Virus record (IMG/VR): IMGVR_UViG_3300032293_001439
Location: 1-64,000 of that record
Source: a virus
DNA length: 64,000 bases
Reading direction: 5' to 3' (one strand)
Shown here: in pieces, positions 2,416 through 19,073 of the stretch
Layout of the letters: each line of letters opens with the position of its first letter
Position numbering within the stretch: the stretch's first letter is position 1
Notes under the pieces: generated by a model
Told to the model about the DNA's origin: nothing
Seen by the model: the letters and a program-made list of their open reading frames with translations, nothing else
The model's database searches: none
Program-made: the position numbers and the translations under genes

Positions 2416-2435
2416 AACACAGTATGGAGATGAAT

Positions 2436-3206
2436 ATGTTATCTAAAGTCACAATAAATGAAGAATTGACATTTGCAACATTTGGATATAATATTTCAGA
2501 TTTACCTAATGGATCTCACTCAAAGATTGTTGTAACATGCGATAACTGTCACACAAACGTTCATAGAGAACGAAGAAACGCAAATGCTAATCATAAATGT
2601 CCAATAATAGATGGAAATACAAAGAGATGTTATAAGTGTGAACAATGGAAAGACTTAAGTTTTTTCAATAAAAGTCGAAAAATGTCTGGAGGCGTTTCTA
2701 AGCTATGTAAAGAATGTTACAATAAAGAACAAGCTGTTATAAAATGTTCCAGATCCAGATCACTTAGATTTAAACATGCTATTGAAAATGGTGATATTGA
2801 GTTTTATATTAAAAGACGCATTGGCACAATTAAATCTAGAGCAGAAAAAAATGGTATAAATTTTGATCTAGATTCTGAATATCTAATCAATCTATGGAAT
2901 AGCCAAAGTGGGCGATGTTTTTATTCCAATATACCTATGAACAATTCTATGAAACAAGATGGATTTCAATCGTGGGATGGTCCGTCTTTGGACAGAATCG
3001 AACCGATAAATGGATATGTGAAGGGGAATGTTGTATGGTGTGCTTTCGGGATCAATTCCTTCAAACAGTCACTAAATTTACAGTCGTTTGAGGACGCAAT
3101 AAGATCTATAGACTGGTGGTATAAAAACAAAACCCCTCCGTATAATGGAGAACCATATGGCAATTCAACAGAGCGATTCGAACAACCCATATTCTCGCAA
3201 AAATAA
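2436..3206 (+). CDS. Free-standing HNH-type endonuclease with two zinc-finger modules
   Basis: This is probably a homing-type DNA endonuclease. The N-terminal part has CDNCHTNVHRERR (C35, C38) followed by C55. A second module has C65-x2-C68 and C91-x2-C94 (CYKCEQWKD, LCKECYN), as in many phage HNH proteins. The C-terminal third carries GRCFYSNIPM, then PSLDRIEPINGYVKGNVVW and INSFKQSL. This is a variant HNH fold with D-R in place of the usual second histidine cluster. I chose the ATG at 2436 because GGAG at 2426-2429 lies six bases upstream; ATGs at 2424 and 2430 lack such a site. The 3' end overlaps phoH by 50 bp, as expected for a mobile gene that settled against a neighbour. No intron boundary is visible. 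Confidence 0.78.
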   Translation: MLSKVTINEELTFATFGYNISDLPNGSHSKIVVTCDNCHTNVHRERRNANANHKCPIIDGNTKRCYKCEQWKDLSFFNKSRKMSGGVSKLCKECYNKEQAVIKCSRSRSLRFKHAIENGDIEFYIKRRIGTIKSRAEKNGINFDLDSEYLINLWNSQSGRCFYSNIPMNNSMKQDGFQSWDGPSLDRIEPINGYVKGNVVWCAFGINSFKQSLNLQSFEDAIRSIDWWYKNKTPPYNGEPYGNSTERFEQPIFSQK

Positions 3207-14494: not shown

Positions 14495-16114
14495 TTGAAT
14501 TGGTTTCCATTGAAGAATTTTACACATTATAGTTTGCTACGTGGTTTTTCTAAACCAGAAGAGCTTGCTGCTAAGTGTAAGGACAACGGATATGTAGCTT
14601 GCGGCATTTGCGATTACAAGACAATATCTGGCGCTGTATCATTTTATCAAGCGTGTAAAAAGGTTGGCATCAAGCCAATAATAGGATGCTCATTTGATAA
14701 CTTTACTTTGTTTGCAAAGAATAAGAGCGGTTGGAATGATCTAATCTCTTTAGTTTCGTCTTTGGATGAAAATGGAGAACTTGCAAAAGATTTTTTGGAT
14801 AAAACCTTGTCTAGAAATAATTTGATCAAACTTAGTTCTTCATCATCAAAAGATATTCCACACAGTTATTATGCAGAAAGGAAGGATGCTAAACTGCATA
14901 GAATTTTATTGTGTTCGGACATGAAGACAACGCTAACTAAGATTCAAAAAACAATAAAGCCAGATCGACTTGGTGGCATTAATGTAGATTCAAAATATCC
15001 TCAAGAACACATGGATAAGCTTGTATATTTTATGCAAGACAACTTCTACGTGTTAGATAAAGAAGAAACTAAGAACCTAGACACAACAGAGCTAGAATTA
15101 ATTTATAGCCAATGCGAAGACTATAATATCTTAAGTAAACCGATTCTTCCAAAGTTTCAATGTCCTAACAATCAGTCAGAAGAAGAATATCTAAAAGAAC
15201 TATGCAGAGAAGGATGGAGAACACTCTTAATATCGCAGGATAAAGTATCGACAGAAGAAGATAAGCAAAAATACCTAGATAGATTCAAGGAAGAGTTTGA
15301 TATTATTAAGGGTGCTAATCTATTCGGATATTTCTTAATAGTACAGGATATTATCAAATATGTAAATGATATGGGTTGGTTGTCTGGACCGGGAAGAGGA
15401 AGTGCTGCTGGATGCTTAATATCATATCTTATTGGTATCACTAAGATAGATCCTCTAGAGTACGATCTACTATTTGCGAGATTTTATAATGCTGGAAGAA
15501 ACTCCGAAGACCATATATCACTACCCGATATCGATATGGACGTTCCCGGCAACAAGAGAGATGAAGTTATAGCATACTTAAAAAACAAGTATGGAAAAGA
15601 CCACGTTAGCCAAATGATCACATTCGGCAGATTGCAAGGTAGAAGTGCAATCAAAGAAGTATTGAGAATACACGAAGCTTGTTCTTTTGCAGAGATGAAC
15701 GCGATCACTAAAGCTATACCAAACGAAGCAGAGATTTCTGATCAATTAGCAGACATGGAAGATGACGAAAGATCTATCATACGCTGGGCGTTAATCAACA
15801 ATGCTGATGAGTTAAGAGATTTTTGTTATATTAATGACGATGGAAGACTAGATGGTGAGTATGCTGAATACTTTCAACAAGCAATAGATATAGAGGGTAC
15901 TTTTAAAACCCAAGGAAAACACGCTGCTGGTATTGTTATTTCAGCAAATAAACTAAGTAATGTATGTCCAATGGTGAATCAAAGGGGATCGGGCGAAAAG
16001 ATAGCCGGATTAGAAATGTCAGATTTAGAGGCTCTTGGTCACGTAAAATTTGATATTCTAGGAATCAATTTGCTTGATAAAATTATGTATATCAAAGAAC
16101 TTGAGAGGAAATAA
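14495..16114 (+). CDS. dnaE (N-terminal fragment): DNA polymerase III alpha, N-terminal half (PHP, palm; split gene)
   Basis: This is the N-terminal half of a C-family replicative polymerase. It has a PHP domain (1-about 200) in which the metal-binding pattern is eroded: NFTHYSLLRG keeps one of three histidines, and ICDYK replaces xTDHx. The palm has GPGRGSAAG (about 297-305) and all three catalytic aspartates, D345 and D347 (LPDIDMD) and D520 (VKFDILGI). The ORF stops 19 codons after D520, where intact DnaE continues into the fingers. The rest is encoded at 17148-18707. The start is a TTG at 14495 with AGGAGAA five bases upstream. The stop overlaps the exonuclease start (TAATG). Confidence 0.92.
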   Translation: MNWFPLKNFTHYSLLRGFSKPEELAAKCKDNGYVACGICDYKTISGAVSFYQACKKVGIKPIIGCSFDNFTLFAKNKSGWNDLISLVSSLDENGELAKDFLDKTLSRNNLIKLSSSSSKDIPHSYYAERKDAKLHRILLCSDMKTTLTKIQKTIKPDRLGGINVDSKYPQEHMDKLVYFMQDNFYVLDKEETKNLDTTELELIYSQCEDYNILSKPILPKFQCPNNQSEEEYLKELCREGWRTLLISQDKVSTEEDKQKYLDRFKEEFDIIKGANLFGYFLIVQDIIKYVNDMGWLSGPGRGSAAGCLISYLIGITKIDPLEYDLLFARFYNAGRNSEDHISLPDIDMDVPGNKRDEVIAYLKNKYGKDHVSQMITFGRLQGRSAIKEVLRIHEACSFAEMNAITKAIPNEAEISDQLADMEDDERSIIRWALINNADELRDFCYINDDGRLDGEYAEYFQQAIDIEGTFKTQGKHAAGIVISANKLSNVCPMVNQRGSGEKIAGLEMSDLEALGHVKFDILGINLLDKIMYIKELERK

Positions 16115-16794
16115 TGGCAAATCGTGACTTTATAATATTTGACTTTGAAACAGGATCAAGAAATCCTCATAAGACTCAACCAACGCAGATCGCAGCATTG
16201 GCATTAGATGGAAGAAACTTTTCTGTCAAGGGTCAATTTAACAGTGAGATACAGCCAATCTTTGATGAAGAAAAGGCTATAGCCGCTGGTTTAGATCCAG
16301 TAGAGGACGAAGCATTAAAGATCACCAACAAAACTAGAGAATCTCTTGAAAAAGCACCGGCACTAAAGTCTGTGTGGGATAAATTTTCTAAATTTGTTTT
16401 ACAGTACAATTGGAAGGGCGATGCATTTTTTAATCCGATCCCAGTTGGTTTTAATATTATATCATTCGATATGATAATTATAAACAGACTATGTGAACAA
16501 TTTGGTCCTTGGGATAAGGATCGTCGGCAGCAAAAGTTATTCAGTAAAGTTTATAAGTTCGATATAATGGATAATATTTTTGCTTGGACAGAAAGCGATC
16601 CATCTGTAAAATCTATAAGCATGGATGCATTAAGGGAAAGAATGGGACTTAGTAAAGAAAATGCTCACGACGCATTGCAAGACGTAAAAGACGAAGCTAA
16701 CATATTCATTAAGCTCATGAAAACTCATAGAGCTATCTACCAAAACATGAATTTTGATAAAGCTTTTGCTAACGGCGGCTTGTATGTCAAATAA
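16114..16794 (+). CDS. dnaQ: DnaQ-like DEDDh 3'-5' proofreading exonuclease
   Basis: This 226-residue exonuclease is expected to proofread for the split polymerase. Exo I is FDFETG (D10, E12), Exo II is GFNIISFD (D119) and Exo III is HDALQD (H185, D190), giving a complete DEDDh active site. The gene lies between the two polymerase halves and is coupled to the first by TAATG. In bacteria, DnaQ binds DnaE through the PHP region; here that contact is not testable by eye. The last 11 bp overlap the HNH gene. Confidence 0.92.
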   Translation: MANRDFIIFDFETGSRNPHKTQPTQIAALALDGRNFSVKGQFNSEIQPIFDEEKAIAAGLDPVEDEALKITNKTRESLEKAPALKSVWDKFSKFVLQYNWKGDAFFNPIPVGFNIISFDMIIINRLCEQFGPWDKDRRQQKLFSKVYKFDIMDNIFAWTESDPSVKSISMDALRERMGLSKENAHDALQDVKDEANIFIKLMKTHRAIYQNMNFDKAFANGGLYVK

Positions 16795-17158
16795 AAAGTG
16801 CAATAAGTGTAAACAAGATTTGCCAATTTCTGAGTTTAGTAAACATAGTGCTAGTAACTATCTCAGACCAGAGTGTAAAAGATGCAACAATTTATTGAGC
16901 AAACAAAGAAAAGAACTACGAAAAGAACATGGCAACCCACCAGAAAATTATAAGTGTCCCATATGTAATAGGAATGAAGAACAAATATCATCTGGTGGAG
17001 GTAATAAAAGCACAAGATGGGTATTAGATCATAATCATGATACTAATAAATTCAGAGGATGGTTGTGCCACAATTGCAACATGGGAATAGGTGCGTTCAA
17101 GGACAATAGAGTAATATTGCAGAAGGCTATTGAGTATTTACAAAATGATGAACTATAA
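16784..17158 (+). CDS. Endonuclease VII-type HNH endonuclease at the polymerase split
   Basis: This 124-residue protein has two zinc-binding modules. One is C6/C9/C31/C34 (CNKCKQDL, ECKRCN). The other is a T4 endonuclease VII-type core with C58/C61 (CPICN), catalytic VLDHNHDTNKFRGWLCHNCN (D82, H83, H85, C95, C98) and GIGAFKD. Phage members of this family include free-standing homing-type nucleases, while T4 endonuclease VII itself is a Holliday-junction resolvase. Here the gene overlaps both neighbours (11 bp and 11-14 bp) and sits exactly at the break in the polymerase gene. That favours the homing interpretation. Confidence 0.85.
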   Translation: MSNKKCNKCKQDLPISEFSKHSASNYLRPECKRCNNLLSKQRKELRKEHGNPPENYKCPICNRNEEQISSGGGNKSTRWVLDHNHDTNKFRGWLCHNCNMGIGAFKDNRVILQKAIEYLQNDEL

Positions 17159-18707
17159 TGATAAGTTAACTTGGCAATTATTTGCAGAAGGAAAAACCAA
17201 GGGTATCTTTCAGCTTGAAAGTAATCTAGGAAAATCTTGGGCTAAGAAATTAGCACCAACAAACATAGAAGAATTGTCTGCTCTTATTGCTATCATTAGG
17301 CCGGGAACATTGAAGGCGTATGTTGACGGCAAAAGCATGACACAGCACTATGTTGATAGAAAACATGGTCGAGAAGAAGTTACTTATTTACATCCAGCAT
17401 TAGAAGAAATATTGAAGTCAACCTATGGCGTTCTTGTGTATCAAGAACAGTCCATGCGTATTGCCCAAAAGATTGCTGGCTTCAATCTACAAGAGGCCGA
17501 CGTTCTTCGTAAGGCCATTGGAAAGAAAAAGGCTGATCTCATGAACGAGGTCAAGAAATCATTTATAGCGGGTGCTGAACGCATTGGAATGGTATCAAAA
17601 GAAGACGCAGAGCAGATATTCGGATGGATAGAAAAATCATCTAGATATGCATTTAATAAGTCTCATAGTGTGTCGTATGCTGTGTGTTCATATTGGAGTG
17701 CATATCACAAAGCCCATAACACAAAAGAATTCTTCTTATCTTATTTGTATTATGCAAACGAGAAGCAAGATCCACACCAAGAAATTTATGAACTAATATC
17801 AGAAGCAAAGCTATTTGATATTAAGGTCAAAACCCCAAGCATAGTAAATTATCACGATAAATTCAATATCAAAAATGATACAATTTACTTTGGTATAAAA
17901 GATATCAAATCATTAACTGGTAAAACCGGTGATAGCGTTGTGGAGAGCCTTGAAATAGTCAAGAAGGATTTGAATAAAAAAACAAAAGAGTTGACTTGGG
18001 TAGAAATACTATTATTCCTAAGTCCAAGCGTAAATTCTGCATCATTTAAAGCTTTAGCATCTATAGGGTTTTTCCGTGGATTCAAAGATAGCATTTCAAG
18101 AAATAAAGCCTTGTATGATTATGAGATCTTTAAATCTTTAACAAAATCAGAACATACTTGGTTAGTAACTAATTACAAGCAAAAACAGTGGAATAGTCTC
18201 GTAGAGGCTCTAACCGACTTAGCACCAACAAAAAAAGAGGGTGGAGGCACAAGCAAAGCTGACAGAAAACAAGTTATTCTTAATGAAATTCAGCTGCTTA
18301 ATAGTCCACCATATGACTTGAAAGATGATCCATCTTGGTTAATAGATCAAGAAGTAAAGTTTTTGGGTTGTCCAGTTAGTATGACAAAAGTTGAAACATC
18401 TGACACATCTGCCGCTAATACAACATGCAAAGACGTTGTAAATGGCAAGAAGGGCAAGAATTTGTGCATAGTAGCAAACGTGCAGCGTGTTGCGGATTAC
18501 AAAATAAAGAAGGGTGAATCTAAGGGACAAATGATGTCCTTTTTAACAATAGAGGACGAAACAGCAACCTTAGATAGTGTTATAATTTTCCCCAAAATTA
18601 AAGAGAAATACAAGTACATTCTTTATGAAGGGAATAATCTAATTTTTTGTGGATACGTCAATAATAATGACTCGTCTTTTATCATTGAACAAATTCATGA
18701 AACTTGA
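17148..18707 (+). CDS. dnaE (C-terminal fragment): DNA polymerase III alpha, C-terminal half (fingers, HhH, OB; split gene)
   Basis: This is the C-terminal half of the C-family polymerase. It opens with NYNDKLTWQLFAEGKTKGIF, then QLES, aligning just after the point where the first half ends. Roughly ten linker residues appear to be absent. The fingers contain AIIRPGTLKAYV, YVDRKHG, YGVLVYQEQSMRIAQKIAGF, LRKAIGKKK and FNKSHSVSYA. A C-terminal OB domain (CIVANVQRVADYKIKKGESK...MMSFLTIEDETATLDSVIIF) should bind ssDNA. ATGs at 17145 and 17148 are both possible starts. No intein or intron boundary is visible, so the halves must assemble as separate chains. Confidence 0.9.
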   Translation: MNYNDKLTWQLFAEGKTKGIFQLESNLGKSWAKKLAPTNIEELSALIAIIRPGTLKAYVDGKSMTQHYVDRKHGREEVTYLHPALEEILKSTYGVLVYQEQSMRIAQKIAGFNLQEADVLRKAIGKKKADLMNEVKKSFIAGAERIGMVSKEDAEQIFGWIEKSSRYAFNKSHSVSYAVCSYWSAYHKAHNTKEFFLSYLYYANEKQDPHQEIYELISEAKLFDIKVKTPSIVNYHDKFNIKNDTIYFGIKDIKSLTGKTGDSVVESLEIVKKDLNKKTKELTWVEILLFLSPSVNSASFKALASIGFFRGFKDSISRNKALYDYEIFKSLTKSEHTWLVTNYKQKQWNSLVEALTDLAPTKKEGGGTSKADRKQVILNEIQLLNSPPYDLKDDPSWLIDQEVKFLGCPVSMTKVETSDTSAANTTCKDVVNGKKGKNLCIVANVQRVADYKIKKGESKGQMMSFLTIEDETATLDSVIIFPKIKEKYKYILYEGNNLIFCGYVNNNDSSFIIEQIHET

Positions 18708-18761: not shown

Positions 18762-19073
18762 ATGAATATTTGTTCGTTTACTGGGTATCTTGTAGAAAAC
18801 CCAAGAATATCTATGTCTGGTGACATAGTAAGAGCTGATTTCGTAATGGTTGTCTATACATATAGAAAAACCAAAACTGGCGAAAAGAATAGAATTCCCA
18901 CATACATACATTGCGAGGCTTGGCACACTGGGGCGGAAACCCTTGAAAAATATGCCACCAAAGGAACGAAATTAGTAGTTCACGCCTCTGCAAAAAATAT
19001 CTCAAAAGAAGATGATCAAATAGTTTTTAGAATTAATGAGTTCGATTTCTGTAACCAAGACTTTGAAGATTAA
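18762..19073 (+). CDS. ssb: Single-stranded DNA-binding protein
   Basis: This 103-residue OB-fold SSB would coat ssDNA at the fork. Family features are NICSFTGYLVENPRI, then RADFVMVVYTYRK, the YIHCEAWHTGAETLEKYATK core, and TKLVVHASAKN. It is much shorter than bacterial SSB (about 170) and lacks the long Gly/Pro-rich linker. It ends in a short acidic stretch (CNQDFED) that may act as a minimal protein-interaction tip. AGGAG lies ten bases before the ATG. It follows the polymerase and precedes the glycan island. Confidence 0.9.
   Translation: MNICSFTGYLVENPRISMSGDIVRADFVMVVYTYRKTKTGEKNRIPTYIHCEAWHTGAETLEKYATKGTKLVVHASAKNISKEDDQIVFRINEFDFCNQDFED

Follow-up and report, generated by a model that had tools for sequence, protein, structure and literature searches.

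Can a polymerase of the C family work permanently as two separate chains? Nearly every bacterial chromosome is copied by polymerases of this family, which are studied as one catalytic chain. The question is raised by a 64,000-nucleotide stretch of viral DNA, here called the window, which comprises bases 1-64000 of the 69,289-base IMG/VR virus record IMGVR_UViG_3300032293_001439. A first inspection of the letters and open reading frames (ORFs), the sequence-only reading, had described a DNA polymerase III (Pol III) alpha subunit divided between two ORFs, here the N half and the C half, with a proofreading exonuclease gene and an HNH endonuclease gene in between, and had called the arrangement unusual. 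Comparison across related loci shows the C-family split around a DEDDh exonuclease to be real, conserved and indeed unusual. We consider it likely, from the comparative evidence given below, that this lineage encodes a permanently two-chain catalytic subunit, held together non-covalently and accompanied by a dedicated DEDDh exonuclease, all from one overlapping operon.

The break lies at the palm/fingers boundary

The assignment of Pol III alpha to two ORFs is borne out by Pfam, PHROG and E. coli alpha alignments, which agree, and 242 loci are alike in this respect. The N half matches PHP (PF02811, E=4e-19) and DNA_pol3_alpha (PF07733, E=5e-70) in Pfam, and aligns to positions 246-611 of phrog_405 and to residues 266-570 of E. 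coli alpha. The C half matches the fingers domain (PF17657, E=5e-49), and aligns to phrog_405 positions 625-1071 and to E. coli alpha 591-849. The break in the polymerase falls after the third catalytic aspartate, at the palm/fingers boundary. The spacing from KxDxLG to QLES has a median of 47 residues in 77 intact cellular DnaE proteins and amounts to 16 + 21 = 37 in the window, in agreement with the original estimate that about ten residues are missing at the break. AlphaFold models of each half alone have a predicted local distance difference test score (pLDDT) of 91.2 for N and 91.2 for C, and both models match DnaE structures; against E. coli alpha (2hnh) the N-half model has a TMq of 0.74. 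The domains first listed for the C half stand as regards the fingers and the OB fold, the latter visible in the predicted structure, but the helix-hairpin-helix region is only weakly matched (HHH_6, 21.6 bits, under the 25.6 cut-off).

Related loci were collected from viral-contig scans with each half, with an N-half profile and with a divergent C half, plus one genome-contig scan. Both halves occur in 242 loci, and clustering of their exonuclease genes at 95% nucleotide identity leaves 152 groups. Without exception the polymerase of the 242 is divided at one and the same seam, with the exonuclease between its two parts; no locus has an intact polymerase or an exonuclease fused to the polymerase. 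A relative with one continuous polymerase ORF, on which the sequence-only reading would have foundered, was sought within the family and none was found. Assembly error, raised at the same time as a possible source of the split, is excluded by the identical arrangement in so many loci. As a control, 77 of 78 cellular DnaE sequences from the same pipeline are single ORFs; the remaining one, from a metagenome-assembled genome (MAG), has one in-frame stop and is not counted as split (L186). On this comparison, all family loci split against nearly all cellular DnaE intact, the split is judged to be old and stable.

Thirteen annotated isolate phages that were examined have one polymerase ORF each; in Rossellomorea phage phiT1 the polymerase is divided. 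Pseudomonas phage WP1 (L278) was considered as a split case and set aside, as its adjoining genes are also fragmented and it looks like poor assembly. Contigs assigned to Flavobacteriales and Lokiarchaeota MAGs carry two family members (L115 and L116); they are probably phage contigs within these bins.

Both halves and the exonuclease are under constraint

Purifying selection is strong on the exonuclease and on both halves, the median ratio of nonsynonymous to synonymous substitution rates (dN/dS) being 0.063 for N, 0.061 for the exonuclease and 0.045 for C. The catalytic aspartates D345, D347 and D520, all of which lie in the N half as originally read, are the same in all 104 N halves compared, as are G298 and S303 of the GPGRGS palm motif. 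The fingers motifs QLES and FNKSH are kept. Between the halves, the complete DEDDh exonuclease that had been described, coupled to the N half through TAATG, is confirmed by its RNase_T match (E=4e-12) and by the observed overlap. It belongs to phrog_192, named "DNA polymerase exonuclease subunit" in PHROG, its nearest PDB profile matches are the PolC exonuclease and Exo I, and the DEDDh residues are kept in 109-110 of 110 exonucleases.

As a DnaE-type polymerase the split protein has the palm aspartates, GPGRGS and the fingers motifs, and lacks an intact PHP metal site and a single polypeptide. The PHP fold itself is present in the N half of the window. The metal-site Glu is absent in 36 of 36 tree rows of the clade that holds the window, and each variant listed has other residues in place of the His/Asp motifs. 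A distant clade retains the PHP metal-site motifs, and palm and fingers motifs are retained in both clades. The loss is not decisive for membership in DnaE, since E. coli alpha has also lost several PHP metal residues, as stated in PMC3666897. With this site gone from the clade of the window, editing there probably falls to the exonuclease alone.

A proposed three-part replicase

The most economical reading, on this comparative evidence, would be a three-part replicase. Its catalytic subunit would consist of two polypeptides, PHP-palm-thumb (N) and fingers, helix-hairpin-helix and OB (C). These would associate non-covalently across the palm/fingers boundary and so bring palm aspartates and deoxynucleoside triphosphate-binding residues of the fingers together in a single, rebuilt active site. 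The exonuclease would be their dedicated editor, a role to which only its gene position points. The putative operon has the order N, exonuclease (exo), C, with overlapping genes. In insert-free relatives, start and stop codons overlap at both of its seams, N/exo and exo/C, which suggests coupled translation of the three genes. A further proposal, which we regard as tentative and on the doubtful side, is that the replicase is ancient and permanently three-chain, with the exonuclease spanning the shortened linker so as to bridge the two polymerase chains, palm and fingers, or to stabilise them. If this were true, the proofreading subunit and the assembly of the polymerase would be obligately linked.

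Several points weigh against a three-part replicase. The genome is represented by a 69-kb record and is probably larger (relatives extend to about 166 kb); neither a clamp nor a clamp loader was identified in this part, and the actual replicase could be a polymerase of the host or a second one of the phage. In the exonuclease, neither a tail of a kind known to bind alpha nor a clamp motif was identified, and conserved gene order is by itself no proof of a complex. The last two points also favor a narrower alternative, in which N and C form the polymerase and the exonuclease is a mere neighbor that acts in repair or elsewhere; gene neighborhood is indirect evidence, and phiT1 has the same split with no exonuclease between. 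We hold this to be unlikely, given that the exonuclease is always between the halves across the 242 loci, bears the PHROG name cited above, and accompanies a polymerase whose PHP site is lost in the window's clade.

It is quite improbable, in our estimation, that the split polymerase is degraded or accessory and that a host or other phage polymerase replicates the genome. Loss of the PHP metal site and the partial state of the record would fit such a case, and there is precedent in jumbo phages, where a split minimal Pol III alpha stands beside a family B polymerase (PMC7824862). Against it are the purifying selection on all three genes, the invariant catalytic residues, and a location in a replication module that also contains DnaB, primase, UvsX-like recombinase, PhoH, ribonucleotide reductase (RNR) and single-strand binding protein (SSB). 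No family A or B polymerase was found among about 36 window proteins scanned, the record being partial.

The HNH gene is a later passenger

An endonuclease VII-type HNH gene overlapping both its neighbors had also been described between the halves, and the Endonuclease_7 match (E=1.5e-15 for the ORF at 16754-17158) and the coordinates agree with this. With it came the suggestion that a homing endonuclease had split the polymerase, as in nrdA of phage Aeh1. The placement of the gene favors that suggestion, as do varied inserts at both seams, some of them nuclease-like. The distribution of the gene does not. It occurs in 23 of the 152 groups, each time with an insert at the exo/C seam, and the 129 groups without it show the break at the same position. 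The family yielded no intact relative, 26 of the first 109 relatives have no insert at either seam, and an HNH gene at the exo/C seam leaves the N/exo seam unexplained. We therefore regard a split caused by this gene as highly improbable, and this part of the sequence-only reading is abandoned. An extinct mobile element may still have been the original cause.

The gene boundary itself bears traces of the insertion. Where relatives lack the HNH gene, the end of the exonuclease gene reads ...TATGTTAAATGATTTAAACTATAACGA..., and the C half begins at the ATG inside it. That ATG (TATGTCAAATAA) serves in the window as the start of the HNH gene, and for the C half there is another, overlapping ATG at the HNH end. 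A re-used ATG together with a new overlapping start for the C half is the pattern of late insertion at an existing gene boundary. The gene carries an HNH domain (PF02945) and shows presence/absence polymorphism at a fixed exo/C site. By these signs it is a later, optional mobile passenger and not the cause of the split; it would have arrived as a free-standing, presumably homing-type insertion at one of two insert-prone seams.

Other seam inserts resemble, by sequence appearance, other HNH genes, methyltransferases, glycosyltransferases and nucleases; four short insert stretches that were tried gave no Pfam match. The relative L002/L083, with an N half 97% identical to that of the window, has a 657-bp N/exo insert that the window is without. 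Another (L103) has inserts of 655 and 639 bp at the two seams, which are whole genes with stops. Both seams are hot spots for insertion, and the split is older than the inserts.

Further differences between the loci were seen in and near the seams. In L044 and L058, 3.6 and 2.6 kb separate exo from the C half, with an inserted gene that carries DUF1559 and an N-terminal methylation motif (Pfam, L044 copy); we take such genes to be typical of Planctomycetes, a possible hint to the host. Most of the distant clade (L036-L080) has a conserved small gene of about 55-65 aa with an SCC motif between N and exo, together with a Cys-containing extension of the C half of about 30-45 aa, CGCCF-like.

Inteins occur elsewhere in the polymerase

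Split inteins do interrupt the same polymerase in some relatives. A canonical split intein (C1 start, TKDHKFLT, VHN/S; the slash marks the junction) breaks the N half again at GPGRG/S in L023, L026, L028, L040, L057, L063 and L065, with a Pfam Intein_splicing match for L040. The polymerase of these relatives is in three coding pieces, plus the exonuclease. In L026, L040 and L057 an endonuclease-like gene lies between the intein-split pieces. The locus L259:8473-12112 has a C half with intein-like ends at RPG/C and just before SHS of FNKSH, in the fingers. Breaks inside active-site motifs go together with inteins in these cases, which is not so for the palm/fingers break. At that seam neither chain has an intein extension, and IntN and IntC are absent. 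An Rfam search over the window region and five loci found no intron, with one chance match far below the cut-off. Frameshift fusion, considered as a general mechanism, is excluded by the whole genes inserted in relatives' seams.

That a single chain is restored at the main seam by programmed frameshifting, RNA splicing or intein trans-splicing is scarcely credible in spite of the canonical C1, TxxH and HN/S ends at the GPGRG/S and L259 fingers sites, given the lack of intein extensions and of an Rfam intron match at the main seam, the occurrence, in relatives such as L103, of complete genes with their stops at one seam or both, and the three different frames that the three genes of the split polymerase operon occupy in the window. 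Because there is no intein at the main seam and no known intron, and whole-gene inserts exclude frameshift fusion, non-covalent assembly of the two chains would be the simplest reading.

Phylogeny of the family

In trees the family is a single clade (support 100/100), apart from sampled cellular and isolate-phage DnaE. The nearest matches in phage collections are only about 30-37% identical. The split was probably already present in the common ancestor of the family. Phage phiT1 lies outside the family clade, and a shared origin is not rejected (approximately unbiased (AU) test with 23 rows, p=0.365). By this p value for phiT1 joining the family, one and two origins of the split are indistinguishable. 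Chryseobacterium phage MA9V-3 was considered as an intact sister and rejected; it has a long branch, and a scan with MA9V-3 yielded no relatives. A scan with the divergent member L077 recovered L077 alone.

Locus layout

Coordinates of the genes are collected in Table 1. The N half has a TTG start with AGGAGA just upstream. The C half probably starts at ATG 17145 or 17148 and not at TTG 17130, a choice favored because the alignments of relatives begin there. The likely start of the HNH gene is ATG 16784, within the 3' end of the exonuclease gene. In the window, as in most relatives, the first gene after the C half is that for SSB. The replication module around the locus comprises RNR, dUTPase, PhoH, UvsX-like recombinase, DnaB, primase, deoxynucleoside monophosphate (dNMP) kinase, a PD-(D/E)xK nuclease and SSB.

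Table 1. Genes of the split polymerase locus and the adjoining SSB gene, in window coordinates
Feature	Coordinates	Strand	Remarks
N half of DnaE-type Pol III alpha	14495..16114	+	PHP (metal site lost), palm with D345/D347/D520, thumb
DEDDh 3'-5' exonuclease	16114..16794	+	D10 E12 D119 H185 D190; start overlaps N-half stop (TAATG)
Endonuclease VII-like HNH gene	16784..17158	+	open frame from TTG 16754; PF02945, phrog_2633
C half of Pol III alpha	17145..18707	+	fingers, helix-hairpin-helix-like region, C-terminal OB fold (predicted structure); listed ORF from TTG 17130
Single-strand binding protein	18762..19073	+	PF00436 E=2e-8

Elsewhere in the window, a second endonuclease VII-like HNH gene (2424-3206) overlaps the PhoH gene. 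The RNR large subunit (1-849) is truncated by the start of the contig and gives no evidence of a split gene. On the minus strand, 33852-62773 holds giant ORFs of 3757, 2198, 1714 and 1255 aa, the last of which had no PHROG match.

Implications and comparison with known systems

A stable palm/fingers break in a phage lineage would mark a natural break point of the enzyme, and the prediction follows that palm and fingers need no covalent link in order to assemble. A rule may be suggested, because breaks in active-site motifs of relatives carry split inteins: the palm/fingers seam tolerates a break, and active-site loops do not. With the exonuclease gene between the halves, the locus may offer a simple system for how a polymerase and its proofreader act as one machine.

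Phage phiT1 (PV767480) is the only cultured phage found with a split at the palm/fingers seam. Its gp20 and gp18 are two nearby genes, both annotated as Pol III alpha and divided at the same seam. It differs in that the genes are separated by an ORF of 49 aa instead of an exonuclease and the linker residues are kept, and it stands outside the family clade. In group 2.2 jumbo phages, Pol III alpha occurs as two proteins that are thought to reconstitute the enzyme (PMC7824862). That alpha is minimal, without other Pol III domains, and is encoded by distant genes with a family B polymerase alongside (PMC7824862); the window, compared with it by published description, has PHP and OB domains and adjacent genes. 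Cyanobacterial DnaE, cited in PMC3919608, is encoded by two genes, intein-split and rejoined by protein trans-splicing. Here, unlike the cyanobacterial case, the main seam has no intein, and the split inteins of some relatives are at other sites.

Splits are also found in other polymerase families. The OM43 phages MEP401 and MEP402 have a family A polymerase in two ORFs with a small ORF between (PMC10580990), and MIJ3 has a split family B polymerase with an intein (PMC6892783). Both differ from the present family in the type of polymerase and in having no exonuclease gene nested between the pieces. As to the pairing of polymerase and proofreader, the E. coli Pol III core (alpha and epsilon) combines a C-family polymerase with a DEDDh exonuclease as a separate subunit, alpha being one chain, and in PolC the DEDDh exonuclease is embedded within the polymerase chain. 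In the open-access literature that was searched, no description was found of a DnaE that is split throughout a family and has its exonuclease gene between the parts. Split DnaE polymerases are already on record; what appears to be new here is a split that runs through a whole family and encloses the exonuclease gene.

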